Notes: generated by a model not told the origin, from the letters alone. 64,000 nt of DNA from Lysobacteraceae bacterium (GCA_021299185.1 JAJTHZ010000040.1:1-64000), one strand, 5' to 3'; shown: positions 34,068 to 48,121, counted from the first letter of the stretch. Translations and numbers: made by a program.

Positions 34068-35192
34068 GTGGCGCTACGCGACAAACTGTTCCAAAGCACG
34101 TTCTCCAAGCTGTTCGTCTACAATATCCTGTGGGAGGACTCGGAGGTCGACGAGCGCTACCTGGGCGTGGACGAGCACGCCGCGGTGCTGTCGATCACCG
34201 GCGCCGGCTGCACGGTGGCGGGCATGCTCAGCCGCCGCCCGGTCTGCATCGACGCGGTGGACATCAACCCGCACCACCTCGCGCTGACCGCGCTGAAGGT
34301 GAACGCCGCCACGCGCAGCCCGACCTACCACGAGTTCTACGACCTGTTCGGGCGCGGCTGGAGCCCGGACCCGGAGATGACCGTGCCGCGCCTCGCCGAA
34401 GGCCTGCCGGACTGGATGCAGCGCTACTGGCGCCGCCACTGGGCGCGCTTCGCGACCACCATGCTGCACAAGGGACTCACCGCGCGCATGCTGCACCTGT
34501 TGCGGCGCGAAGTCGGCGTCGACGGCCCCTGGCTGCGCGACGTGATCCGGCTGCCGGCCGAGGAGCGCCGCCGCGCGGTCGACGCGCGCATCGCGCCCGT
34601 GCTCGCCAAGCCGCACTTCAAGGCGTTCCTGAAGTCGCCGATCCAGCTCGTCTCGCTGGGCATCAACTTCCAGCAGCGCGATCGACTGGTGGAGGCCGAA
34701 GGCCTCGAAATGGTCGACTACTTCGTCGAGCACATCAAGCGCGTGGCCTCGACCGACCTCGCCACCAACTGGTTCGGCTGGTACGTGGTGGCCGGCCACT
34801 ACGACCACGACAATCCCGACGCCGTGCCGCCCTACCTGCGGCGCGACCGCTTCGAGCGCTCGCGCGGCGCGCCGACGGCGGTGCGCTACCACAAGCGCAA
34901 CCTGTTCGACGTCCTCTCGCAGGCCGGCCCCGGCACCTGGTCGCACTACACCCTGTGCGACGCCCCCGACTGGCTGCCGGCGGAAGCGCAGAAGCGCCTG
35001 CTGGCGGAGATCCTGCGCACCAGCCGCGACGGCGCGATCGTGCTGGCGCGCTCGGTCGAGGGGGCCTGCATGGTCGAACGCACGGGCATGGACCGTCACT
35101 TCCGGCGCCTCGACGAGGTCTCCGACGCGGCCACCGCCGAGGACCGCTCGCGGCAGTATCGGCGGGTCAACTTCTACCGCGTCGCGCACTGA
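34068..35192 (+). CDS. btaA: S-adenosylmethionine:diacylglycerol 3-amino-3-carboxypropyltransferase BtaA
   Basis: First enzyme of betaine-lipid (DGTS) synthesis: it moves the 3-amino-3-carboxypropyl group of SAM onto diacylglycerol, giving diacylglyceryl-homoserine at the membrane. 374 residues, DUF3419/BtaA type. Seen: the opening LFQSTFSKLFVYNILWEDSEVDERYL, SAM-site LSITGAGC (41-48) and VDAVDINPHH (62-70), a basic/aromatic middle, LVSLGINFQQRDRL, NWFGWYVVAGHYDH, and the late FDVLSQAGPGTWSHYTLCDAPDWLP. The start is GTG with GAGGTG 5-10 nt upstream; a longer frame from 34011 exists but lacks a ribosome site. The stop overlaps btaB. Best known in alphaproteobacteria, often phosphate-regulated. 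Confidence 0.9.
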   Translation: MALRDKLFQSTFSKLFVYNILWEDSEVDERYLGVDEHAAVLSITGAGCTVAGMLSRRPVCIDAVDINPHHLALTALKVNAATRSPTYHEFYDLFGRGWSPDPEMTVPRLAEGLPDWMQRYWRRHWARFATTMLHKGLTARMLHLLRREVGVDGPWLRDVIRLPAEERRRAVDARIAPVLAKPHFKAFLKSPIQLVSLGINFQQRDRLVEAEGLEMVDYFVEHIKRVASTDLATNWFGWYVVAGHYDHDNPDAVPPYLRRDRFERSRGAPTAVRYHKRNLFDVLSQAGPGTWSHYTLCDAPDWLPAEAQKRLLAEILRTSRDGAIVLARSVEGACMVERTGMDRHFRRLDEVSDAATAEDRSRQYRRVNFYRVAH

Positions 35193-35806
35193 TGGCGGGC
35201 ACGGCGCAGGCACACCGCGATTTCCTCAACCGCTACTACCGGTTGACGCGGCACGTGTACGACGCGACCCGGAAGTTCTATCTGCTCGGTCGTGACGCCG
35301 CGTTGCGCGACATCCTCGACGGCAACTGGCAACGACTGGTCGAGATCGGGCCCGGGACCGGGCGCAACCTGCAGCGGCTGCGCGAGGCCCGACCGCTCGC
35401 CCACTTCGGTGGCGTCGAGGCCAGCGACGCCATGCTCGGGCACGCGCGCAAGCGCCTGCCGTGGGCCACGCTGGTGCACGGCTTCGCCGAGGATGCGGAC
35501 TACACGACGCTGCTCGGCGCCCGCCCGGACGTGGTGCTGTTCAGCTATTGCCTGAGCATGGTGCAGGACCCGCGGCGCGCGCTCGACCATGCGCGACGCT
35601 CGCTGGCGCCTGGCGGGCGCGTGGTGGTGGTGGATTTCGGCGACCTGGCCGGCCTGCCGTCGATCCCGCGCGCGATGTTGCGCCGCTGGCTGGCGCTGTT
35701 CCACGTCGCGCCGCTCGACCCCGCGGTGCTGGCGCCGCACCAGCCGACCCTCACCCACGGGCCCGGTCGCTACTACGTCATCGCCACCCTGCCCCCGCTG
35801 CCCTGA
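35192..35806 (+). CDS. btaB: Diacylglyceryl-homoserine N-methyltransferase BtaB
   Basis: SAM-dependent methyltransferase of 204 residues, which methylates diacylglyceryl-homoserine three times to DGTS. It opens with YYRLTRHVYDATRKFYLLGRD, a block close to the N-terminus of characterised BtaB proteins. SAM motif I is EIGPGTGRNL (51-60), followed by GVEASDAML, FSYCLSMVQDP and a late GRYYVIATLP. The ATG shares its A with the last base of the btaA stop codon (TGATG), so it is coupled to btaA. With BtaA this makes a complete two-enzyme DGTS pathway. Convergent with the oxygenase-like gene, 38 nt between stops. Confidence 0.9.
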   Translation: MAGTAQAHRDFLNRYYRLTRHVYDATRKFYLLGRDAALRDILDGNWQRLVEIGPGTGRNLQRLREARPLAHFGGVEASDAMLGHARKRLPWATLVHGFAEDADYTTLLGARPDVVLFSYCLSMVQDPRRALDHARRSLAPGGRVVVVDFGDLAGLPSIPRAMLRRWLALFHVAPLDPAVLAPHQPTLTHGPGRYYVIATLPPLP

Positions 35807-35844
35807 GGGCACGGCGCAGCGCCGCGACCGGGCGCGCGCCGCGC

Positions 35845-36690
35845 TCAGGCCAGCGCGCGCACGACGCCGTAGGCTGCCGCCGCGAGCAACGCGCCGAGCA
35901 GCGCGATCGGCGCCAGCGGGTGGATGTTGTTGAGCACGCGGGCCACGTTGCACAACAGGCCCACCGCGCGCTGCAGCGGGTTGCGCGGGCTCTTGGAATA
36001 CTCCATCGCCGCCTTGACCACGTAGAACACGCCGGTGTTCGCCGCCAGCAGCAGGCGCCGGGTCAGCGGTGCATCCGGCGGCGACACCAGGTAGTTGCAC
36101 TTGAGCAGGATGCGCGGCTCGCCGCTCGGCCGGTACTCGCCTTCCACCCAGTGCAGTTCGCGGTGGAAGTCGAGCAGGCCGAAGTCGTAGGTCTGGAACG
36201 CCTTGCGCACGCCGCTGTCGCCGAACACCACCGTGTAGCTGGCGTCCGAGCGCAGGTAGATCAGCGCACGCACCACGGCACCCACCGGCACGAAGCGCAG
36301 GTTGCCGTCGTAGTGCCTGGCGAACAGGCCGTGGTCGCCGCCGAAATCCTTGTTGTAGTGCGACAGGTAAAGCTCGTCGGTGTGCTTCATCGGCGTGATC
36401 ACCGCGTCGGCCGCGAAGCGCCGCGCGATCGCCTCCCGGATCACCGGGCTGTCGCGCAGGTGGTCGACCAGGGCGGCCGCATCGGCCGGCAGGGTGTCGA
36501 CGTAGACGTGCTTCGAGGGCCGCAACGTCAGGTCCTCCCGGTAGCGGTCCATGACCCAGTCCGCCAGGCGGTCCACCACCGCGCGCTCGGCCGCTTCGAA
36601 CGCGCCGAGCGTGGCGGGGAAGCCGCGCACCGGCGATCGCGCGGGTTGCGGCGGGTCCTGCGTGCGGGTCAGCCCGGCGGTGTGGCGCAT
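35845..36690 (-). CDS. Possible 2OG-Fe(II) oxygenase-like protein with a C-terminal membrane anchor
   Basis: 281 residues, family not recognised with certainty. Residues about 95-205 show a prolyl-hydroxylase-like layout: HYD at 126-128 (HxD iron ligands), RALIYL near 141-146, then HREL-H-WVEG with His176/His180, and Arg193 in EPRILLKCNYL, where the family has its distal His and 2-oxoglutarate-binding Arg. N-terminal helix-rich part FEAAERAVVDRLADWVMDRY. One or two hydrophobic segments close the protein (PLAPIALLGALLAAAAYGVV, 258-277). GGAGG lies 7-11 nt before the ATG. It overlaps the PEMT-like gene and faces btaAB. Lipid hydroxylation is an inference from context. Confidence 0.5.
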   Translation of the reverse strand: MRHTAGLTRTQDPPQPARSPVRGFPATLGAFEAAERAVVDRLADWVMDRYREDLTLRPSKHVYVDTLPADAAALVDHLRDSPVIREAIARRFAADAVITPMKHTDELYLSHYNKDFGGDHGLFARHYDGNLRFVPVGAVVRALIYLRSDASYTVVFGDSGVRKAFQTYDFGLLDFHRELHWVEGEYRPSGEPRILLKCNYLVSPPDAPLTRRLLLAANTGVFYVVKAAMEYSKSPRNPLQRAVGLLCNVARVLNNIHPLAPIALLGALLAAAAYGVVRALA

Positions 36691-37523
36691 GGGAGGTCCT
36701 CCGTGTCGGGTGGGGGTGCGCTGCCGCGGCGGGCGGCGGGCACCGTGTAGGCGATGTAGAGCGCGTGGGCATAGAGGCCGGCGGCGGCACCGAGCGCGGC
36801 CGCCCACGGCGCCGTGGGCTCTGCGGCGAGCACGGCGGCGGCGGCGCCGATCGACGCGCCGGCGACACCGCAGGCGACCGCGCCGCGCCACGTTCCGCGG
36901 CGCGGCGGTCGTGGTACCGCGGCGACCGCCAGCCGCAGCGGCAGCACGTGCCGCTCCATCAGCAGCAGGCCGAGATTGGCCACCACGTGGGCGCAGGCGA
37001 GCGGCCACCACGACGCACGGAACGCCTCGTTGAGCAGGGTTCCACCGAAAGCGAGCATGTTGCCCACCAGCATGGGGTGCGCCAGCACCGAATAGGGGAA
37101 GCGCACCACGCGCAGCGGTGCGAGCGCCGCGAGTTCATGGCCGTAGTACGTGCGGTCCGACCCGAGCACGGTCGCCGCCGTCGCGTTCAGCAGGAAACCG
37201 GCGCCCACCACGATCAGCGACAGGCCATCGATCGGCGCCGACAGGTAGACCACGCCCAGGCCGGCCAGCGACAGGCCTTTCATCAGCACCGCATCGCGCC
37301 GGAACACCCGCAGCGGCACCGCGCCGTAGCGGAACGCCAGCGCATACAGCAGGTAGTGCCAGAAGGCGAGCGCGTAGACGGCCCATCCGAGGCCACCCAC
37401 CACCACCGCGACGGCGGCGACGCAGGCGATGAACAGGCCGCTGGCCCACAGGCTGCGACCGCCGCTGGCGCGGACCGGCAGCGCGGACGGGATCGCGCGC
37501 ATCGGCGTGGCGCGCTGCTGCAT
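36669..37523 (-). CDS. PEMT/ICMT-like integral membrane protein, putative lipid-related methyltransferase
   Basis: 284 residues with about seven hydrophobic helices. The middle RFPYSVLAHPMLVGNMLAFGGTL (near 141-163) and LGLLLMERH (183-191) recall the HPxYxG and late Glu motifs of PEMT/isoprenylcysteine-type methyltransferases, where SAM binds within the membrane. The canonical Tyr after HP is Met here. It is the upstream gene of a pair overlapping by 22 nt with the oxygenase-like gene. Start at MQQRATPM is the best ATG, but the frame is open upstream, so the exact start is uncertain. It could be an inactive relative. Confidence 0.5.
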   Translation of the reverse strand: MQQRATPMRAIPSALPVRASGGRSLWASGLFIACVAAVAVVVGGLGWAVYALAFWHYLLYALAFRYGAVPLRVFRRDAVLMKGLSLAGLGVVYLSAPIDGLSLIVVGAGFLLNATAATVLGSDRTYYGHELAALAPLRVVRFPYSVLAHPMLVGNMLAFGGTLLNEAFRASWWPLACAHVVANLGLLLMERHVLPLRLAVAAVPRPPRRGTWRGAVACGVAGASIGAAAAVLAAEPTAPWAAALGAAAGLYAHALYIAYTVPAARRGSAPPPDTEDLPCATPPG

Positions 37524-37711: not shown

Positions 37712-38251
37712 TCACGGCCCGGCCGCGAGCAGGCGGTCGAGTTCCACCATCCACGCCAGAAGCCGTCGATACAGCCGCGGTCGGTCCTCGACCCAGCGCA
37801 CGTGGACTTCGACCACGAGCTTTCCGTCCTCGGCGACCACCCGCGAGAGCTTCGAGCGCTCGGCCGCGAGCCAGCAGCGCAGGGCCAGTAGATGGCGCTG
37901 TGCCGGGTCGCGCTCCAGCAGGGCCTGCACGAACGTTTCTGAGCCGGGTTCGATCCAGAACGCGGCATCGAACCCGGGGCGTCCCACCGCGAGTTCGCGT
38001 CGCCAGCGCAGCCGCGGCTGCGGCCGCAGGTGGAAGTTCCGACGGCGCGTGCCCGGGATCTCGAGCAGCGCCCACACCGGCCAGCCGATCCGGGTCCGCA
38101 TCTCAGTCACCACGGTCGCATGGCCGTCATGCGCGATCGGCACCTCGCCGCGCGGGCCCATCGCGTATCCCGCGCGCCAGCCGTGCCGGGCGTACATCCA
38201 CGACGCCCACGCCACCATCACCACCGGGTAGACCAACTTGTGCCACGCCAT
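37712..38251 (-). CDS. Hypothetical membrane-anchored protein
   Basis: 179 residues, not recognised. One N-terminal helix (LVYPVVMVAWASWMY) is followed by a soluble part with an even spread of strands: VPIAHDGHATVVTEMRTRIG, RNFHLRPQPRLRWRREL, FDAAFWIEPGSETF, and a helical C-terminus rich in Arg/Leu (QRHLLALRCWLAAERSKL). Coding bias is strong. No Cys pair and no catalytic motif seen. The gene stands alone between the lipid-gene pair and the divergent esterase gene. Confidence 0.6.
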   Translation of the reverse strand: MAWHKLVYPVVMVAWASWMYARHGWRAGYAMGPRGEVPIAHDGHATVVTEMRTRIGWPVWALLEIPGTRRRNFHLRPQPRLRWRRELAVGRPGFDAAFWIEPGSETFVQALLERDPAQRHLLALRCWLAAERSKLSRVVAEDGKLVVEVHVRWVEDRPRLYRRLLAWMVELDRLLAAGP

Positions 38252-38567
38252 GCCGGATACGCCTCGATGCGGCCATCGCTACCCTGTCCGCGCCGCCACG
38301 CCGTCGGCCGCGGGGTCACGACGGACGGGTGCGAGGCAGCGCCGACCGCTCGCCTCACACCGGGTGGAATGCCGGAACAGGCGCGGATCGAACACCCCGG
38401 AGACGCCGCATCGTCGATGCCGCATGCCGAAGCGCGCCGCGAACGCACGCGCTGGCCGACGACCGGGCCGCATCGCGTGCTGCATTGCAGCTTGCCCCAT
38501 CGGACACTGCCGGCGCGCGGCGCAGCGTGGCGCAATGCCTGCACGCCGAAGCCGTAGGAGCCGCGAC
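38252..38567. other. 316-nt divergent intergenic region
   Basis: Between the hypothetical membrane protein (minus) and the esterase (plus). No convincing -35/-10 pair, palindrome or coding bias; only the esterase ribosome-binding site (GTAGGAG at 38554-38560) is clear. Confidence 0.5.
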
Positions 38568-40367
38568 ATGCCGCCCGCCCCCTTCCACCGCCTGCGTGCG
38601 GCCGTGCTCCTGCTCGCGCTCGGCGTCGCCGGCGCCGCCGCCGCGCAGACCGAGGTGACCGGCTTCGGCAGCAATCCCGGCAACCTGCGCATGTTCAAGT
38701 ACGTGCCCGCCGGCCTGCCCGCGGGCGCGCCGCTGGTGGTCGCGCTGCACGGCTGCGCGCAGAGCGCGTCGAGCTACGACGCCGAGACCGGCTGGGTCCT
38801 GCTCGCCGACCGCTGGCGCTTCGCCCTGCTGCTGCCGCAGCAGCAGAGCGCGAACAATTCCAGCAGCTGCTTCAACTGGTTCGAGGTCGGCGACACCACG
38901 CGCGGACAGGGCGAGCCGCTGTCGATCAGGCAGATGGTCGATCGCATGATCGCCGATCACGGCAGCGCCGCGGGACGCATCTACGTGACCGGCTTGTCGG
39001 CCGGCGGGGCGATGACCGCGGTGATGCTGGCGACTTATCCGGACGTGTTCGCCGGCGGTGCGGTGGTCGCGGGCCTGCCGTACCGCTGCGCAACCTCGCA
39101 GTCGGCGGCGTTCTCGTGCATGAACCCGGGCACCGACCTCACGCCGGCACAGTGGGGCGACCGCGTGCGCGCGGCGTTCTCCTACGCCGGGCCACGGCCG
39201 ATCGTCTCGCTGTGGCACGGCGACGCCGACTTCGTGGTGCGCCCGCTGAACCTCAGCGAGGGCATGGAGCAGTGGACCAACGTGCTCGGCGTCGACCAGA
39301 CCGCCGACGTGGTCGAGACCGTGGCCGGCTACCCGCGCCGCGTCTACAAGGACGCCGCCGGCGTGCCGCGGGTGGAGACCTGGACCATCACCGGCATGGG
39401 CCACGGCACGCCGGTCGACCCCGGCACCGGCGAGAGCCAGTGCGGCACCGCCGGCGCCTACATCCTCGACGCCAACATCTGCTCGAGCTGGTACATCGGC
39501 CGCTTCTTCGGACTCGACAACCTCGACCCGACGGCGCCGACCGCCACCGTCACCGCGCCCGCGCCCGGCAGCACCGTGTCCGGGAGCGTCACGGTGTCGG
39601 CCACGGCCAGCGACGACGTCGGCCTTGCGCGCGTCGACTTCCTGCTCGACGGCGCCCTGCTCGGCAGCGACACCAGTCCGCCGTATGCGATCGCATGGGA
39701 TACGACCACCACGACCAATGGCGCGCACACGCTGCAGGCGCGCGCGGTCGACCTCGCCGACAACACGGGGACCTCGGCGGCGGTCGGCGTGACCGTGGCC
39801 AACGGCGGCGGCGGGGGCGGCGGCACGCCGGTGACCGCGAACTTCGCCAACGAGGACGCCAACGACGGCTACGTCAAGGCCAATGCCACTGGCGGCTCGG
39901 CCGCGGTCGGCACGCTGGAGTCGAGCTTCGGGCTGGCGATCGGCCGCGGCACCGACGGGCTGTTCAACCGCGCGGTGCTGTCCTTCGACACCGCGTCGAT
40001 CCCCGACACCGCGACCATCACCGCGGCCACGCTGACCGTGCGCTATCGCAGCGCCTCGGGCAACCCCTGGGGCAATCCCGCGGGCAACACCCTGGTGGTC
40101 GACGCGAACACCGGCTGCATCGGCGCGTGCACCATCGCGACCACGGATTGGGCCGCCGCGACCACCGCGCCGGCGGCCGCGACCATCCCACCGTTCACCG
40201 GTGGCAGCCAGGCCAGCACGCTGTTCAGCGCCGCCGGGCTCGCCGCGATCCACCGCACGGGCCGCACCCAGCTCCGGCTACGCTTCGCTGCGAACCAGAC
40301 CGCCACGAACTTCCTGTGGATCGACCGCGGTGCGACGGCGACCCTGAGCGTGACCTGGGTGCCCTGA
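38568..40367 (+). CDS. Secreted PHB-depolymerase-family esterase with C-terminal accessory domains
   Basis: Extracellular alpha/beta-hydrolase of 599 residues. Signal peptide 1-27 (ends GAAAAQ). The catalytic domain (30-320) has the oxyanion ALHGCAQSASSY, nucleophile Ser144 in VTGLSAGGAMTAV, the acid block WHGDADFVVRP and the late His in GMGHGTPVD; it also has the SSSCFNWFE segment typical of LpqC/PHB depolymerases. An Ig-like Big_9-type domain follows (DDVGLARVDFLLDGALLGSDTSPPYAIAWDT), then a Gly-rich linker, then a DNRLRE-like beta-sandwich (FNRAVLSFDTASIPDTATITAATLTVRYR). Substrates may be poly-hydroxyalkanoate, or feruloyl/acetyl-xylan esters; sequence alone does not decide. Confidence 0.85.
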   Translation: MPPAPFHRLRAAVLLLALGVAGAAAAQTEVTGFGSNPGNLRMFKYVPAGLPAGAPLVVALHGCAQSASSYDAETGWVLLADRWRFALLLPQQQSANNSSSCFNWFEVGDTTRGQGEPLSIRQMVDRMIADHGSAAGRIYVTGLSAGGAMTAVMLATYPDVFAGGAVVAGLPYRCATSQSAAFSCMNPGTDLTPAQWGDRVRAAFSYAGPRPIVSLWHGDADFVVRPLNLSEGMEQWTNVLGVDQTADVVETVAGYPRRVYKDAAGVPRVETWTITGMGHGTPVDPGTGESQCGTAGAYILDANICSSWYIGRFFGLDNLDPTAPTATVTAPAPGSTVSGSVTVSATASDDVGLARVDFLLDGALLGSDTSPPYAIAWDTTTTTNGAHTLQARAVDLADNTGTSAAVGVTVANGGGGGGGTPVTANFANEDANDGYVKANATGGSAAVGTLESSFGLAIGRGTDGLFNRAVLSFDTASIPDTATITAATLTVRYRSASGNPWGNPAGNTLVVDANTGCIGACTIATTDWAAATTAPAAATIPPFTGGSQASTLFSAAGLAAIHRTGRTQLRLRFAANQTATNFLWIDRGATATLSVTWVP

Positions 40368-41016: not shown

Positions 41017-41910
41017 TCAGCGCGCCGCGGTTTGCGCCAGCACGAGCGCACCGACCAGCCCGGCGTCGGTGCCGAGTCCCGGAGCCACCAACAGCGGGGG
41101 CGCACCGGGACTGTCGGCGATACGCACGGGATAGCCGCCGAGCCAGCGCTGCAGGCTCGCGCTGATGTCCGGCAGCAAGCGGTGGTCGCCGAGCACGCCG
41201 CCACCGAGGATGATCCGTCTCGGCGACGCCGCCAGCACCAACTGTGCGCAGAGCTGGCCGAGATAGTCCGCTATGAGCGCATGCGCAGGATGCGACGCGG
41301 GCAGGGCGTCGAGCGACGCGCCCCAGCGCGCGTGGATCGCGGGTCCGCTGGCCACGCCCTCGAAGCAGTCGCCATGGAACGGACATACGCCGGCGAAGTC
41401 GAGGTCCCCGGCCGGTCGCCGCGGCCGCAGGTGGCCGATCTCCGGATGCAGCGCGCCGTGCAGGGGACGTCCGTCGATCACCAGGCCACCGCCGATGCCG
41501 GTGCCGACGGTCACGTAGGCCAGCGTGTCGAACCCGAGTCCGGCCCCGTGCCGATGCTCGCCGAGCGCGGCTGCGTTGACGTCGGTATCGATGGCCACCG
41601 GCACGCCGAAGGCCTCGGCGAAGGGACGCACGAGGTCGACGTCGCGCCAACCCGCCTTGGGGGTCGACAACAGGCGGCCGTGGAACGGTGATCGCTCGTC
41701 GAGGTCGAGCGGGCCGAAGGCGCCGATGCCGATCGCAGCCGGCGGACCGAGCCGGTGCGCGATCTCGCGCAGGTGCTCGACGCAGGCGGCGAGAGTGTCG
41801 CCCGGGGTACCCGTCGGGATGCGCCGGCGATCGTCGATGCGGCCCTCGGCGCGCCCCGCGCCGACCATGAACTTGGTGCCGCCCGCCTCGATGCAGCCGT
41901 ACCAGCTCAT
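41017..41910 (-). CDS. ROK-family fructokinase
   Basis: Cytoplasmic sugar kinase of 297 residues: ATP + fructose to fructose-6-phosphate. ROK hallmarks: the first phosphate loop IEAGGTKFMVG, the DTDVNAAALGE segment (catalytic Asp), the GTGIGGGLV phosphate-2 motif, the zinc motif CPFHGDCFEGVASG with its upstream GHL, and LGGGVL. The size and GGTK start match bacterial fructokinases of the ScrK/Mak type. It is the last gene of the receptor-amylosucrase-kinase set (its ATG overlaps the amylosucrase stop by 4 nt), where it would use the fructose that amylosucrase releases. Confidence 0.88.
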   Translation of the reverse strand: MSWYGCIEAGGTKFMVGAGRAEGRIDDRRRIPTGTPGDTLAACVEHLREIAHRLGPPAAIGIGAFGPLDLDERSPFHGRLLSTPKAGWRDVDLVRPFAEAFGVPVAIDTDVNAAALGEHRHGAGLGFDTLAYVTVGTGIGGGLVIDGRPLHGALHPEIGHLRPRRPAGDLDFAGVCPFHGDCFEGVASGPAIHARWGASLDALPASHPAHALIADYLGQLCAQLVLAASPRRIILGGGVLGDHRLLPDISASLQRWLGGYPVRIADSPGAPPLLVAPGLGTDAGLVGALVLAQTAAR

Positions 41911-43802
41911 CCACGCTCCAGCCAGCATTGGCCCCAGGGCCGCACGACGAACGACATGCCGCGCACGGAAGCATCCAGCAGGTCGTGCCAGCTGTCCACC
42001 GGCGGCGCGAAGCGCACCGCCCGCGGCCCGAAGTTGAACACGCCGATGAACTGATCGCCGCGCGCGAGCACCAGCAGGGACGGATTGCCGGCATCCAGCA
42101 CGCGCCGCGGCGCTGCCGCATGCAGCGCCGACTGGTCCCGGCGTACCGCGACCATCGCGCGAAGTCGCGCGAGGACCACGCCGGCGGGAGCGTGCGCATG
42201 CGGATCCGCGGCGCGCTCCCAGTCCATCGCGGGGCGATGAAGCCACCGGCCCTCGTGGCGCCGCCCCGGATCGTCGTCGAACGCGAGATCGTTGCCGAGC
42301 GCGATCTCGTCACCCATGTAGAGCGTCGGCAATCCGCCGCAGCACATCGCGACCCCATACAGCAGCAACAGGCGGTCCACGGCTTCCGCCATCGCGCGCG
42401 GGTCCCCAGCGCGCTGTGCGCGACCGATGCCGCACAAGTCCGCCGCCATGCCGCTGGTGCCGTGCACGCCGCCGTCGGCGGACTGGAACGGACGGCCGTC
42501 GGCGAAGCTGTCGGCGCGGGAGCCCGCATAGAATCCCGCCACCCAGCCGAGGTCCACGGGGGGCTCGCGGTCGCCACCGACCGCTTCCGGCGCGAGCACC
42601 TTCCAGCCGATGTCGTCGTGGCAGCGCACGTAGGTCAGCCAGGAGCAGCACGGGCCCAGCGTCGGCGTGTCGCGCAGCACGCGCCGCAGCATCGCGGTGT
42701 CGCCGAGTGCGAGGCTGGCCCATGCCGCCGTCATCAGGCTGCTGTGGTACGCGAGGTGGCACTCGGGACCCTGCGCGCCACCGAAATAGGGCGGCAGGTC
42801 GCGCATCGGCACAATGGCCTCGGCCTTGAGCAGCACGCCGGGCGCGAACACGTCGACCAGCGCGCGCAGCGCGCGCAGGATGGCGTGCACCTCCGGCTGG
42901 TTCATGCAGTCCGTGCCCTGGCGCTTCCACAGGAACGCGATCGAGTCCAGGCGCAGCACTTCCACTCCACGGTTCGCCGTGCGCAGCAGCGTGGCGGCCA
43001 TCGCGACGAATACGTCCGGATTGCTCCAGTCGAGGTCCCACTGGAACGGATAGAACGTGGTCCAGACCCAGGCGTCGAGCGCAGCATCGTGGGTGAAGTT
43101 TCCCGGGGCGGTGAGCGGGAAGATCTGCGGCAGCGTCGCCTCGAAGCGGTCCGGCACCTCACGGTCCGGATACACGTGGTAGAACGCGCGGTAGCGCGGA
43201 TCGCCGGCCCGCGCGGCCACCGCCCAGGCGTGGTCGTCGGCCGTGTGGTTGAGCACGAGGTCCGCGCCGAGGCTGATGCCCGACGCGCGAAGTCGCCTCG
43301 CGAGTCCGACCAGATCGTCCATCGTACCGAGGCGCGGGTCGACCTCGTCGTAGTCGGAGACGGCGAAGCCCCCGTCGTTGTCGCCATCGCGGGGACGCAG
43401 GAACGGCAGCAGGTGCAGGTAGCGCACGCCGAGCCCCTGCAGCCAGTCGATCCGTGCCGTGACCCCGGAAAAACCGCCGCCGAAGCGGTCGACGTAGGTC
43501 GAGTAGCCGAGCATGCCGGGGTCGAGGAACCAGTCGGGCCGCTGCGCGCGTTCGGCATCGAGTGCGTGCAGTTCGGGATCGCGCCGTGCCGCGAGGCCGG
43601 CCGCCGTGGACAGCAGTGCATTCCATGCGTCGGCCGCGCCGTCGCGATGCCCGTAGAGGTTGGTGAACTCGCGCGCCAGGACGGCGCCGGGCCCAGCCTC
43701 CCAGCGCGCGGTGAGGGTCGCTGCGAGGGCCGGGTCGAGTCCCGACGGCAACGGCAACGGCGGCGCCGTGGCGCCGGGGGTCGGTTCGATCGTGGGCTTC
43801 AT
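41907..43802 (-). CDS. Amylosucrase (GH13), SuxA-like
   Basis: Cytoplasmic GH13 enzyme of 631 residues that cleaves sucrose, transferring glucose onto an alpha-glucan and releasing fructose. Nucleophile Asp286 (VLRLDSIAFLWK) and acid/base Glu328 (LLKAEAIVP) fall at the same residue numbers as in the N. polysaccharea amylosucrase structure; the HDDIGW transition-state Asp follows near 396. Also seen: an extended N-terminal helical domain before YSTYVDRFGGGF, LVLNHTADDHAWA, FYHVYPDREVPDRFEATLPQIFP, and a C-terminal beta domain. Xanthomonas SuxA is the nearest characterised analogue. An alternative is sucrose hydrolase (SUH), which differs by a few active-site residues. Confidence 0.93.
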   Translation of the reverse strand: MKPTIEPTPGATAPPLPLPSGLDPALAATLTARWEAGPGAVLAREFTNLYGHRDGAADAWNALLSTAAGLAARRDPELHALDAERAQRPDWFLDPGMLGYSTYVDRFGGGFSGVTARIDWLQGLGVRYLHLLPFLRPRDGDNDGGFAVSDYDEVDPRLGTMDDLVGLARRLRASGISLGADLVLNHTADDHAWAVAARAGDPRYRAFYHVYPDREVPDRFEATLPQIFPLTAPGNFTHDAALDAWVWTTFYPFQWDLDWSNPDVFVAMAATLLRTANRGVEVLRLDSIAFLWKRQGTDCMNQPEVHAILRALRALVDVFAPGVLLKAEAIVPMRDLPPYFGGAQGPECHLAYHSSLMTAAWASLALGDTAMLRRVLRDTPTLGPCCSWLTYVRCHDDIGWKVLAPEAVGGDREPPVDLGWVAGFYAGSRADSFADGRPFQSADGGVHGTSGMAADLCGIGRAQRAGDPRAMAEAVDRLLLLYGVAMCCGGLPTLYMGDEIALGNDLAFDDDPGRRHEGRWLHRPAMDWERAADPHAHAPAGVVLARLRAMVAVRRDQSALHAAAPRRVLDAGNPSLLVLARGDQFIGVFNFGPRAVRFAPPVDSWHDLLDASVRGMSFVVRPWGQCWLERG

Positions 43803-43810
43803 TCGGGATC

Positions 43811-43839
43811 CGCGCCGCCGGGCCGGGCCCGGCGGCGCG
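43811..43839 (-). other. GC-rich hairpin between the receptor and amylosucrase genes
   Basis: A near-perfect palindrome (CGCGCCGCCGGGCC / GGCCCGGCGGCGCG around one base) in the 43-nt gap. In the mRNA it forms a 12-bp stem. It may end part of the receptor transcripts or protect the upstream mRNA end, giving unequal expression of the two genes. No T-run. Confidence 0.5.
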
Positions 43840-43845
43840 CGGCGT

Positions 43846-46317
43846 TCAGAACTCGTAGCGCAGCGTGGCCGAAACGGTCCGGCCGGGGATCGGGCGCGCC
43901 CGGATGATGTTGTCCACGCCTTCGACGATCGCGCCTTCCTCCGACTCCGTCAGGCCCAGGGCGTCGAACGCGTTGTTCACGTTCACGCCGAGTTGCATGT
44001 TGTCGCTGATCCGGTAGCTCGCGAACAGATTGACCTGCACGAACCCGGGAAGCACCAACTGGTTGGCATCGGAGGCATACGTGTCGGACTGGCCGACGAT
44101 GTTCGCGCCGAAGTTCACGCGACCGCTTTCGGTGGTGTACTGCGGGGTGAGCTGGTAGATCACGTCCGGCTGCCGCCGCGGCGTGTTGCCCGCGTTCTCC
44201 GGCGTGATGTTGTCCTCGGTGATCTCGGCATCGGTGAGGGTCAGGCCGCCGCTGAACCAGAAGCCGCCGCGCCGCCAGACCGCCTCCAACTCGAGGCCCC
44301 TCGCCTCGTAGCTGCGGTCGAAGAATCGCTGGGTGGTGGCTTCGAAGTTCTGCTCGTCCGTACGGGCGAGGAATGCAGTGGCGAACACGCTCAAGTCCCC
44401 CGCGCTCCACTTGGCGCCGAACTCGAACTGGTCCACCTGATCGACCGCATCCTCGTCGCGCACCGAGCCGTCGGGCCGCACACGCCCGAACAGCAGGCGG
44501 TCGGCGTTGGCGCGACCACCGCGGCTCGCGCGGCCGAACAGCGCGAGATCGTCGTCGAGCACGTAGTTCGCTCCGAGCGACCACGAGGTGTAGTCCCAGT
44601 CGTAGTCGACGAGGGACGGATTGGCATTGTCGATGATCGACACGTTGCGTTCCGGACCGGAGATCGTCCCGTCGCCGTCGACGTCGAAGTTCGTGGCCTG
44701 GGTCGACCCCGCGTAGTTGCCGGTGGCCTCGCCGGAGTCGAAGCGAACGCTGCCGTCGACATCGAGCGGGCCCGACGTCCAGCGCAGCGACACATAGGGC
44801 GCGGCGACGTCGTAGCGCACATCGTAGCTGCGCGTGCAGCAGTTGCCCCAGAACGGAACACCATACGCATAGAGGCCCCGGTCGCTGCGCAGCGCCCCGC
44901 GCGCGTCGCGGATGTCGAGCAGCGCCGCGCGGCGCCCGCGAAGCTCCATGAGATAGGAATTCCAGACCCAATCCATGTCGACGTCCTGTCGGGCCAGGTA
45001 GTAGCCCAGCGTGGCGTGCAGCGCGGAATCCGCATCGACGTCGAAGCTGCGCTTGAGCTGCAGGTCGTTGGTGAAGCTGCCGAAATCGTTGAGTTCGGTG
45101 TTGAACAGATGGGTGCGGATCGCGGTGCCGGTATAGGCCTGGCCAGCATTCGGCCCGTTGGCGTAGACCACCGTCGCCCCCGCTCCCGCGACCTCCGCCG
45201 CGATCGCGGACGCCGCTGCGATCTCGGCCGGAAACGGCGACACGAAGCGCCCGGACTTGTCCGCGAAGCGGAAACGGTCGAGCAGCGACCAGCCGCCGTC
45301 CAGATCGAAGGAGAATTCGGCGCCGACCGCGGTGGATTTCGGACGCATGCCGTCGCGGATGTCGGTGGTGCGGCGATTGTTGGCGCCATCCAGCCCGATG
45401 TCGGACAGGAACAACGGGCTGTGCGGGGTGTCCACGCGCGGATCGAACCCGGGCAGCGAGCCGATGTCGGGATCGTCGTTGCTGCCGCTGGCGCGCACCG
45501 GCATCGGCAGATAGCCGATGGCGCGATCATTGAGGTGCTTGAAGTAGAGGCGCGCGTAACCACCTTCGAATTCGCGGGTCAGATTACCCTTGATCTGGCC
45601 GCCGGATTCGGCGCGGTAGTCAGCATTGCGCGGACCGTCGCCCTCGCGCCAGAACCCGCCGACGTGGAAGCGCCAATCGTCGCCGAGGCGGCCACCGTAC
45701 TCGAAGTCGCCGCGTGAGGACTCGTAGCCGACCCCGGTGGTCAACGCGAGGCTGCCGCCGTCCGTTTCGCCGGTGCGGCTGATGAAGTTGATCACGCCGC
45801 CCGGCGAGTTGCTGGCGAAGGTGGACGCCGAGCCGCCACGGATCGCTTCGATGCGTTCGACGCTGTAGTCGTAGCGCAGGAAGATGTCGGCGTTGGCGAA
45901 GGCGATGTCGCCGAACTCCATCACCGGCAGACCGTCCTCGTGAAGCTGCAGGAACTTCGCACCGCCGGCCGCGACCGGCAGGCCGCGCACCGCGATGTTG
46001 GCATTGCCCTCGCCGCCGCTCGACTCGGAGCGGATGCCGGGGATGTTGCGGAAGATCTCCGCCGTCGACCGCGGAGCCGCCTTTTCGACGAGGTCGGGCT
46101 CGACGACGGTGACCGAGACAGAGGAACGGAACACCGTGGTGTCACCGGTCGATGCCGTCACCAGGATTTCGTCCAGGCTCAGCGGCGAGTCGTCGTCCTT
46201 CTTCGCGTCGCGCTCTTCCGCCAACTCGGCGGTTTTTGCTGCGCAAACGATTGTCGACGTGACCAAAGCGGCGATCAGTACGGAAAGCAATCTGCGGTTC
46301 ATCTGCTTTGCGTTCAT
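43846..46317 (-). CDS. TonB-dependent outer-membrane receptor, SuxB-like sucrose uptake
   Basis: Outer-membrane transporter of 823 residues. Signal peptide 1-27, TonB-box region near SLDEILVTAS, plug (residues about 50-170) with TAEIFRNIPGIRSE, IAVRGLPVAAGG, VERIEAIRGGSASTFASNSPGGVINFISRTG, then a 22-strand barrel ending in an aromatic SATLRYEF. The plug's VRG and GGVINFI blocks mark it as a TBDT. Placed between the amylosucrase and a divergent sugar symporter, it matches the SuxB role (sucrose across the outer membrane) known from Xanthomonas. MNAKQMN is chosen as start; an internal ATG five codons later is possible. Confidence 0.9.
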   Translation of the reverse strand: MNAKQMNRRLLSVLIAALVTSTIVCAAKTAELAEERDAKKDDDSPLSLDEILVTASTGDTTVFRSSVSVTVVEPDLVEKAAPRSTAEIFRNIPGIRSESSGGEGNANIAVRGLPVAAGGAKFLQLHEDGLPVMEFGDIAFANADIFLRYDYSVERIEAIRGGSASTFASNSPGGVINFISRTGETDGGSLALTTGVGYESSRGDFEYGGRLGDDWRFHVGGFWREGDGPRNADYRAESGGQIKGNLTREFEGGYARLYFKHLNDRAIGYLPMPVRASGSNDDPDIGSLPGFDPRVDTPHSPLFLSDIGLDGANNRRTTDIRDGMRPKSTAVGAEFSFDLDGGWSLLDRFRFADKSGRFVSPFPAEIAAASAIAAEVAGAGATVVYANGPNAGQAYTGTAIRTHLFNTELNDFGSFTNDLQLKRSFDVDADSALHATLGYYLARQDVDMDWVWNSYLMELRGRRAALLDIRDARGALRSDRGLYAYGVPFWGNCCTRSYDVRYDVAAPYVSLRWTSGPLDVDGSVRFDSGEATGNYAGSTQATNFDVDGDGTISGPERNVSIIDNANPSLVDYDWDYTSWSLGANYVLDDDLALFGRASRGGRANADRLLFGRVRPDGSVRDEDAVDQVDQFEFGAKWSAGDLSVFATAFLARTDEQNFEATTQRFFDRSYEARGLELEAVWRRGGFWFSGGLTLTDAEITEDNITPENAGNTPRRQPDVIYQLTPQYTTESGRVNFGANIVGQSDTYASDANQLVLPGFVQVNLFASYRISDNMQLGVNVNNAFDALGLTESEEGAIVEGVDNIIRARPIPGRTVSATLRYEF

Positions 46318-46402
46318 TTCTGCTGCATCCCGCCCAAGTTCGTGCCACCCGATCCCAGTCGTCGAGCGGCGGGTCACGGCGGATGCGGAGTTTGGTAGTT
46401 TG

Positions 46403-46416
46403 TGCAATCGATTGCA
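46403..46416. promoter_or_regulatory. Candidate LacI-type operator
   Basis: TGCAATCGATTGCA, a perfect 14-bp palindrome with a central CG, as expected for LacI/GalR proteins. It lies 86 nt upstream of the receptor start and 116 nt upstream of the symporter start, so one repressor could control both directions. The repressor gene is downstream of the symporter. Confidence 0.7.
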
Positions 46417-46531
46417 ATCACTTTTGATGCTGCATTGCGGAATACCGCTCCGCAACGCGGCATCGAAGGCTGCATCATCGACCGGCCTGTACGGCCGGAC
46501 CGTAGACGCTCGTGGACGCTCGGGAGGGGGC

Positions 46532-48121
46532 ATGAACGGCGCGCAGTTCTCGATATCCGATCTCGATCTGGCGGTGGTCGCCGCATACCTCGTCGGCGTG
46601 GTGGCGCTGGGCCTGTGGGCCGCGCGGCGCGCGCAGGGTGCGGAGGGCTTCTTCCTCGCCTCGCGCGCCAGCCGCTGGCCGACGATCGGCTTCGCGCTGC
46701 TGGCGTCCAACATCTCCTCGACCACCCTGGTCGGGCTGGCCGGCGCGGCGTACGCGATGGGAATCTCGGTCTACAACTACGAGTGGATGGCCACCGTGGT
46801 GCTGGCGTTCTTCTGTGTCTTCTTCCTGCCGTTCTTGCTGCGGTCCGGCGTGTACACGCTCCCGGAGTTCCTCGAACGACGCTATTCGCGGGGCGCCCGC
46901 GTCTACTTCTCCGGCCTGACGCTGTTCCTCAACGTGTTCGTCGACACCGCAGGCACGCTGTACGGCGGCGCGCTCATGTTCAAGCTGGTGATGCCCGAAG
47001 TTCCGCTGTGGCAGATCGTCGCGGCGCTGGCGGCGTCGGCCGGGCTCTACACGGTGGTCGGCGGCCTGCGCGCGGTGATGATCACCGAGGTCGTTCAGGC
47101 GGTGCTGCTGCTCGGCGCTTCGGTACTCGTCGCGTGGCTGGCTTTCGACGCGGCCGGCGGCTGGTCGCAGGTGATGGCGAACGTGGGTCCAGCCAAGCTG
47201 TCGTTGATCCGCCCGGCGGACGATCCCGGCGTGCCCTGGACCGGTCTCGTGCTCGGCGTCCCGCTGCTGGGGTTCTATTTCTGGTGCACCAACCAGTTCA
47301 TGGTTCAGCGCGTTCTCTCGGCGCGCGACGAGAACCACGGCCGCTGGGGAAGCCTGTTCGCCGGCCTGCTGAAGCTGCCGGTCCTGTTCCTGATGGTGCT
47401 TCCGGGGACCTGCGCGATCCTGCTCTACCCGGAGCTCTCCGACCCGGACCTCGTCTATCCCACGCTGCTGTTCGACCTGCTGCCGGCGGGGCTGCTCGGA
47501 CTGGCGTTGGCGGGTTTCCTCGCCGCGATCATGTCGTCGATCGCCTCGACCTTCAATTCAGCCGCCACCCTGGTGACGATGGACTTCGTGCGTCCCGCGG
47601 CGCCACGGCTCGACGACCGCGCGCTGGTCGCCACCGGGCGGGTGGCAACGGTCGGCTTCATGCTCGTGGCGGTTGCCTGGGCACCGCAGATCGAGCGTTT
47701 CGATTCGCTCCGGCAATACCTGCAGGCGGTGCTCGCCTACGCCGTTCCTCCGGTCGTCGCGTTGTTCGTGGTCGGGCTGTTCTGGACGCGGGCCAACGCG
47801 CGTGGCGCCCTGGCCACGATCATCGTGGGACTGGTCGGCGGCGCCGCGTTGTTCCATGCCAACGTGCTGGCGGCGCAGCCGCTGGGCCTGCACTTCCTGC
47901 TGGTCGCGCCGCTGCTGTTCGCCGCGTGCGTGTTCGTCCTGGTGCTGGTCAGCGCATTCAGCGCGCCGGACCCGGGCGACCGGTCCGCGCTGCAATGGAC
48001 CCCGGCCTCTTTCAATGCGGAAACCCGCGCGCTCGCGGGGCAGCCCTGGTGGTCCAACTACCGCGTGCAGGCGGTCGCGCTGCTGGCTGCAACCGCGGTG
48101 CTGGTGTGGTGGTTCCGCTGA
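46532..48121 (+). CDS. SSS-family sodium:sugar symporter
   Basis: Inner-membrane sodium:solute symporter of 529 residues with about 14 helices. The helix 1-2 block GFALLASNISSTTLVGLAGAAYAMGISVYNYEW matches the SGLT/PutP superfamily, with NISS and G-rich helix breaks; FYFWCTNQFMVQRVLSARD matches the sugar-transporter subgroup; the late AIMSSIASTFNSAATLVTMDF carries the conserved Na+-site Ser/Thr pair. GGGAGGGGG precedes the ATG. In Xanthomonas sux the inner-membrane step is an MFS protein (SuxC); here an SSS symporter takes that place. Sucrose specificity is inferred from context. Confidence 0.87.
   Translation: MNGAQFSISDLDLAVVAAYLVGVVALGLWAARRAQGAEGFFLASRASRWPTIGFALLASNISSTTLVGLAGAAYAMGISVYNYEWMATVVLAFFCVFFLPFLLRSGVYTLPEFLERRYSRGARVYFSGLTLFLNVFVDTAGTLYGGALMFKLVMPEVPLWQIVAALAASAGLYTVVGGLRAVMITEVVQAVLLLGASVLVAWLAFDAAGGWSQVMANVGPAKLSLIRPADDPGVPWTGLVLGVPLLGFYFWCTNQFMVQRVLSARDENHGRWGSLFAGLLKLPVLFLMVLPGTCAILLYPELSDPDLVYPTLLFDLLPAGLLGLALAGFLAAIMSSIASTFNSAATLVTMDFVRPAAPRLDDRALVATGRVATVGFMLVAVAWAPQIERFDSLRQYLQAVLAYAVPPVVALFVVGLFWTRANARGALATIIVGLVGGAALFHANVLAAQPLGLHFLLVAPLLFAACVFVLVLVSAFSAPDPGDRSALQWTPASFNAETRALAGQPWWSNYRVQAVALLAATAVLVWWFR

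Follow-up and report, generated by a model that had tools for sequence, protein, structure and literature searches.

The 64,000-nucleotide stretch of Lysobacteraceae bacterium DNA analysed here (GCA_021299185.1 JAJTHZ010000040.1:1-64000, referred to as the window) carries a btaA-btaB unit (btaAB) that faces a two-gene operon for a PEMT/ICMT-like membrane protein and an Fe(II)/2-oxoglutarate (2OG) oxygenase-like protein (together referred to as the pair). We consider it about evenly balanced whether btaAB and the pair represent a betaine-lipid locus and its tailoring operon, in which the oxygenase would hydroxylate and the PEMT-like protein would methylate the lipid; the substrate, order and product of such tailoring are what we infer. 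The host genome of the window measures 4.84 Mb in 270 contigs and is 98.9% complete, and the features concerned are as follows.

34068-35192, plus strand: btaA, encoding a divergent BtaA-like 3-amino-3-carboxypropyl transferase (DUF3419) of 374 aa; GTG start, PF11899 match
35192-35806, plus strand: btaB, encoding a class-I S-adenosylmethionine methyltransferase of 204 aa; its start overlaps the btaA stop
35807-35844: gap of 38 bp, seen in the sequence, separating the convergent btaAB and PEMT-oxygenase units
35845-36690, minus strand: Fe(II)/2OG oxygenase-like protein of 281 aa with C-terminal membrane helices; assigned by predicted fold, new sequence family
36112-36315, minus strand: codons H126 to R193, with H126, D128 and H180 as putative iron triad and R193 as putative 2OG ligand, based on invariance in 30 sequences and the model
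36669-37523, minus strand: PEMT/ICMT-like integral membrane protein, probable methyltransferase (PF04191); alternative start at 37502

The first-pass annotation had placed a complete btaA-btaB pair at this position, and both genes could be confirmed. Residues 10-369 of the 374 in BtaA aligned in Pfam to positions 4-382 of the 385 in profile PF11899 (DUF3419), which we take to be the BtaA family, at an E-value of 7.1e-58, and the protein shares 26-32% identity with BtaA proteins from other genomes and sits on a long tree branch. BtaB matched the Pfam families Methyltransf_12, Methyltransf_23 and Methyltransf_11, and shares 42.5% identity across 181 aa with its counterpart downstream of BtaA in a genome that carries the pair; the overlap of the btaA stop with the btaB start reads TGATG, from 35190. 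Together, BtaA and BtaB would make diacylglyceryl-trimethylhomoserine (DGTS) or its precursor. The genes resemble the BtaA/BtaB DGTS pathway of Rhodobacter sphaeroides (reportedly worked out by Klug and Benning in 2001 and by Riekhof et al. in 2005) in their btaA-btaB order and in combining a DUF3419 protein with a small class-I methyltransferase, whereas the window BtaA is short and divergent, the window has no clear Pho box, and a PEMT-oxygenase operon faces btaAB. Although the genes had been flagged as notable in a gammaproteobacterium, that part did not stand: DUF3419 occurs in 31 of 369 sampled genomes of the window's class, so a betaine-lipid pair is unsurprising there in itself. With 28 of 240 sampled genomes positive in the class of the alphaproteobacterial Reyranella genome G413, BtaA was present in about 9% of the sampled alpha- and gammaproteobacteria, in samples unmatched for genome size.

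Two further observations concern this family. Loci L140-L147 and L151 carry a divergent DUF3419 subfamily with no BtaB neighbour detected by tblastn, the function of which may differ from that of BtaA. PlcP is a phosphate-starvation phospholipase, and in the pair-carrying L095, L097, L100, L101 and L105 a metallophosphoesterase resembling it (assigned by eye) adjoins btaAB. A PlcP-type gene beside btaAB has been reported in marine bacteria (PMC4796936).

The oxygenase-like protein gave no meaningful sequence match in Pfam, NCBIfam, PHROGs or PDB sequences, and none of its relatives matched any oxygenase family by sequence; a match to a known 2OG oxygenase family is usual, but not obligatory, in this superfamily. 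When a single genome from each of 84,980 species was scanned with an alignment of two oxygenase sequences as query, relatives of 58-70% identity came up in 37 other loci. The residues H126-x-D128, H180 and R193, earlier noticed for their oxygenase-like spacing, turned out to be invariant in 30 of 30 aligned sequences. An AlphaFold (AF2) model on the 30-relative alignment (mean pLDDT 84.3, pTM 0.81) predicts strands arranged as a double-stranded beta-helix, followed by C-terminal helices. Specifically, one strand starts at H180 and the last barrel strand at R193, while residues ~114-128, including the H126/D128 stretch, form the least certain part of the modelled domain. The top Foldseek matches in the PDB were Fe(II)/2OG oxygenases (probability 1.00), led by collagen prolyl 3-hydroxylase (P3H1), PHD2 and a bacterial prolyl 4-hydroxylase (P4H) and also including FtmOx1, in line with the fold that the first-pass annotation had anticipated; TM-scores reached about 0.4 on the query, a modest value in keeping with a match at the level of the superfamily rather than the family. 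In its predicted fold and HxD...H...R spacing the protein resembles the prolyl-hydroxylase-like oxygenases P3H1, PHD2 and Pseudomonas putida P4H, but it has no detectable sequence similarity to them and possesses a C-terminal membrane anchor and a conserved MKHTDELYxSHYNKD block. Our best reading of the model is a putative Fe(II)/2OG oxygenase representing a new sequence family. Its tree comprises roughly ten separate lineages, with weak deep nodes, and none of the 40 closely related genomes that were compared with that of the window has the gene. A mobile or viral origin was not supported, since the plasmid, phage and viral-contig collections searched contained no oxygenase relatives.

The PEMT-like protein scored 36.3 bits on PF04191 (cut-off 25), and this family was found in 27 of 27 of its homologues (E <= 0.01). 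Like PEMT/ICMT-type membrane methyltransferases it carries an HPM motif, after which come GN and a late glutamate, whereas the R of the usual RHPM motif is replaced and the C-terminus differs; on the basis of its sequence, the product of 36669-37523 is a probable membrane methyltransferase. Its gene lies directly upstream of the oxygenase gene in the window, where the two share 22 bp, and in 35 of 35 other loci with a long enough contig (genes in GC-rich loci being called with a codon model), with a 4-bp overlap in 21 of these 35. Moreover, the oxygenase and PEMT profiles matched the same two genomes only among the 240 sampled alphaproteobacterial genomes. The pair is a strict operon, which bears out the two-gene unit of a PEMT-like and a membrane-anchored protein originally proposed opposite btaAB. 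Because oxygenase relatives occur in 37 loci and the PEMT-like gene precedes them wherever the contig extends far enough, the open reading frames in the window are not chance.

The connection between this operon and betaine lipids emerges at the genome level. BtaA (DUF3419) was present in 35 of 38 genomes carrying the pair, as compared with the class-wide counts given above; the pair genomes without DUF3419 (G423, G434 and G437) are assemblies of 3.0-4.4 Mb with short contigs, and G437 is also without any phosphatidylserine decarboxylase (PSD). Besides the centres, the carriers drawn at random in the class samples (G351 and G533) were both BtaA-positive (p = 0.009), and each of the roughly ten oxygenase-tree lineages includes at least one BtaA-positive genome. 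The BtaA proteins of pair genomes fall into several groups of the BtaA tree, and because several BtaA types accompany the pair, its association appears to be with a lipid capability and not with one gene lineage. One named carrier is Reyranella soli NBRC 108950 (locus L035), while assembly labels such as 'Bordetella parapertussis', 'Klebsiella pneumoniae' or 'Planctomycetia' are unreliable bin names and were not used as taxonomy.

A second gene set extends this connection. In Reyranella-type genomes, the operon is followed downstream by an Mpo1-like gene, which sits directly 3' of the oxygenase gene and matches PF06127 at 22 bits (just under the cut-off of 24), a class-III pyridoxal-phosphate (PLP) enzyme and a PSD paralogue. 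The latter is an extra copy, as most of these genomes have another, shorter PSD elsewhere. For the PLP enzyme, the nearest matches are glutamate-1-semialdehyde aminomutase and the mycosubtilin aminotransferase domain, with which it shares the class-III PLP family and the catalytic Lys motif YGKTVGGG, but it differs from them in its N-terminal hydrophobic segment (membrane anchor) and its link to lipid genes. In G405, btaAB has the same PSD, PLP enzyme and Mpo1-like gene as neighbours; G351 and G130 have the PLP enzyme and the Mpo1-like gene there, oriented divergently from btaAB. The loci in which both of the latter genes adjoin btaAB are the following.

L093, 6925-12769: with the PSD paralogue in addition
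L091, 4298-8747
L138, 4279-8687

Since the pair adjoins the PLP set in Reyranella, the PLP set adjoins btaAB in G405, G351 and G130, and btaAB adjoins the pair in the window, the window, the Reyranella loci and G405/G351 look like three cuts through one gene set (a transitive link). A PLP-enzyme orthologue was found in 27 of 38 pair genomes, as against one of the 42 that have BtaA and no known pair, a group that includes G533, later found to carry the pair.

The presence of an Mpo1-like gene also raises the possibility that the oxygenase acts on fatty-acyl chains, for example by 2-hydroxylation of the LpxO/OlsC type, with the 2-hydroxy product serving as substrate of the Mpo1-like protein and the head group remaining untouched. 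2OG oxygenases can hydroxylate acyl chains, and the weak Mpo1-like match lies next to the oxygenase gene as this would have it, but the PEMT-like partner and the decarboxylase/PLP enzyme suit a head group better. As ten BtaA-positive pair genomes are moreover without a PLP-enzyme orthologue, we hold action on acyl chains to be decidedly improbable.

Under the tailoring reading, BtaA and BtaB would first build DGTS or its precursor, and the membrane-anchored oxygenase would work at the membrane surface, hydroxylating either this betaine lipid or some BtaA-derived intermediate. The PEMT/ICMT-like methyltransferase would methylate the same lipid on oxygen, carboxylate or amine. In many relatives the submodule of PLP enzyme, Mpo1-like protein and extra PSD probably acts on this lipid as well, and could remodel the head group further.

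The proposal that the pair modifies a betaine lipid, already made in the first-pass annotation, is partly supported: the co-occurrence with BtaA and the oxygenase fold speak for it, while hydroxylation and/or methylation of DGTS itself is putative. Several results weigh against it. The 38 tree rows include 26 from a single Reyranella-type clade, so that many of the genomes are related, and the base rates with which co-occurrence was compared come from samples unmatched for genome size. G130 carries btaAB, the PLP enzyme and the Mpo1-like gene without the pair. The PEMT-like model (pLDDT 78.6, its central loop being weak) yielded no PDB structure match at E <= 0.001, and because it matches no solved structure, it is the Pfam match that carries the methyltransferase assignment. 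Furthermore, in the flanks retrieved around the pair (up to 10 kb) no bta gene was present in any of 37 loci, so that btaAB adjoins the pair in the window only. Adjacency as a general rule was accordingly rejected, and of the expected association it is the one at the genome level that holds.

This last result, together with the convergent orientation of btaAB and the pair, which do not form one operon, might in turn indicate that their arrangement in the window is a coincidental adjacency and that the function of the pair is unrelated to BtaA-pathway lipids. However, coincidence leaves both the co-occurrence across about ten oxygenase-tree lineages and the transitive neighbourhood of pair, PLP set and btaAB unaccounted for, and we regard it as highly doubtful.

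Regulation provides a final point against the tailoring reading. In 11 of 19 pair genomes there is a Pho-box-like site (at least 11 of 14 positions matched) ahead of btaA, compared with about 2% of random stretches, and such a site was found in one case each before the PLP enzyme and before PSD. It was found before PEMT in 0 of 36 loci, and in the window neither btaAB nor the PEMT-oxygenase unit has one. Since the site occurs before btaA and never before PEMT, the two units are not obviously co-regulated, and shared Pho-box control is not supported. This difference would suit a scenario in which phospholipid head groups are the target of both the pair and the PLP/PSD submodule, e.g. through N-methylation and hydroxylation of phosphatidylethanolamine, and BtaA co-occurs through a shared lifestyle of frequent phosphate limitation. 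PEMT and PSD are indeed phosphatidylethanolamine families, and the module PSD is a paralogue additional to a second PSD elsewhere; what it leaves unexplained is that btaAB lies next to some of the module's genes in three lineages (the window, G351/G130 and G405) and that nearly all pair genomes have BtaA. Modification of phospholipids is in our judgement possible, though unlikely.

If the betaine lipid is indeed the substrate, the gene sets might be combined further. The usual substrate of PSD has an amino acid as its head group, from which the enzyme removes the carboxyl group, and diacylglyceryl-homoserine could plausibly take the place of phosphatidylserine in this reaction. BtaA/BtaB, the PEMT-oxygenase pair and the PLP/Mpo1-like/PSD set could then constitute a pathway to an undescribed betaine-type or decarboxylated lipid (phosphate-free and resembling phosphatidylethanolamine or phosphatidylcholine), in which the PSD paralogue would decarboxylate diacylglyceryl-homoserine to an amine that the PEMT-like enzyme would methylate, and remodelling of the head group, perhaps into a DGTA- or DGCC-like product, would fall to the oxygenase and PLP enzyme; we consider this full scheme rather improbable. 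The known betaine-lipid synthetic enzymes are BtaA and BtaB; DGTA is assumed to form from DGTS by decarboxylation and recarboxylation through unknown enzymes, and nothing is known of DGCC synthesis (PMC10685587). These algal betaine lipids are comparable in that they would need head-group enzymes acting after BtaA, but no evidence links the gene set, or the bacteria carrying it, to DGTA or DGCC. Literature searches, which were not exhaustive, found no description of such genes. Betaine lipids let microbes spare phosphorus, and a conserved operon that tracks BtaA, together with a linked second set, provides named candidate genes for bacterial betaine-lipid modification; if the assignment is true, the 2OG oxygenases would also gain a new sequence family.

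With regard to the surroundings in the window, GC content at third codon positions was 0.89-0.96 in btaA, btaB, oxygenase and PEMT genes and 0.87-0.94 in in-frame neighbours (the ROK and TonB neighbours, measured out of frame, being disregarded), and because of this resemblance there is no sign of recent foreign origin of the four genes. The PEMT-like gene is preceded on its own strand by a gene at 37712-38251 (minus) for a 179-aa protein with no Pfam match, and 38508-40367 (plus) encodes a polyhydroxybutyrate-depolymerase-type esterase with a bacterial immunoglobulin domain. Finally, a ROK-family sugar kinase, an alpha-amylase-family enzyme and a TonB-receptor-like gene (by eye) lie consecutively on one strand at 41017-46725 (minus), in what looks like a sugar-use locus.

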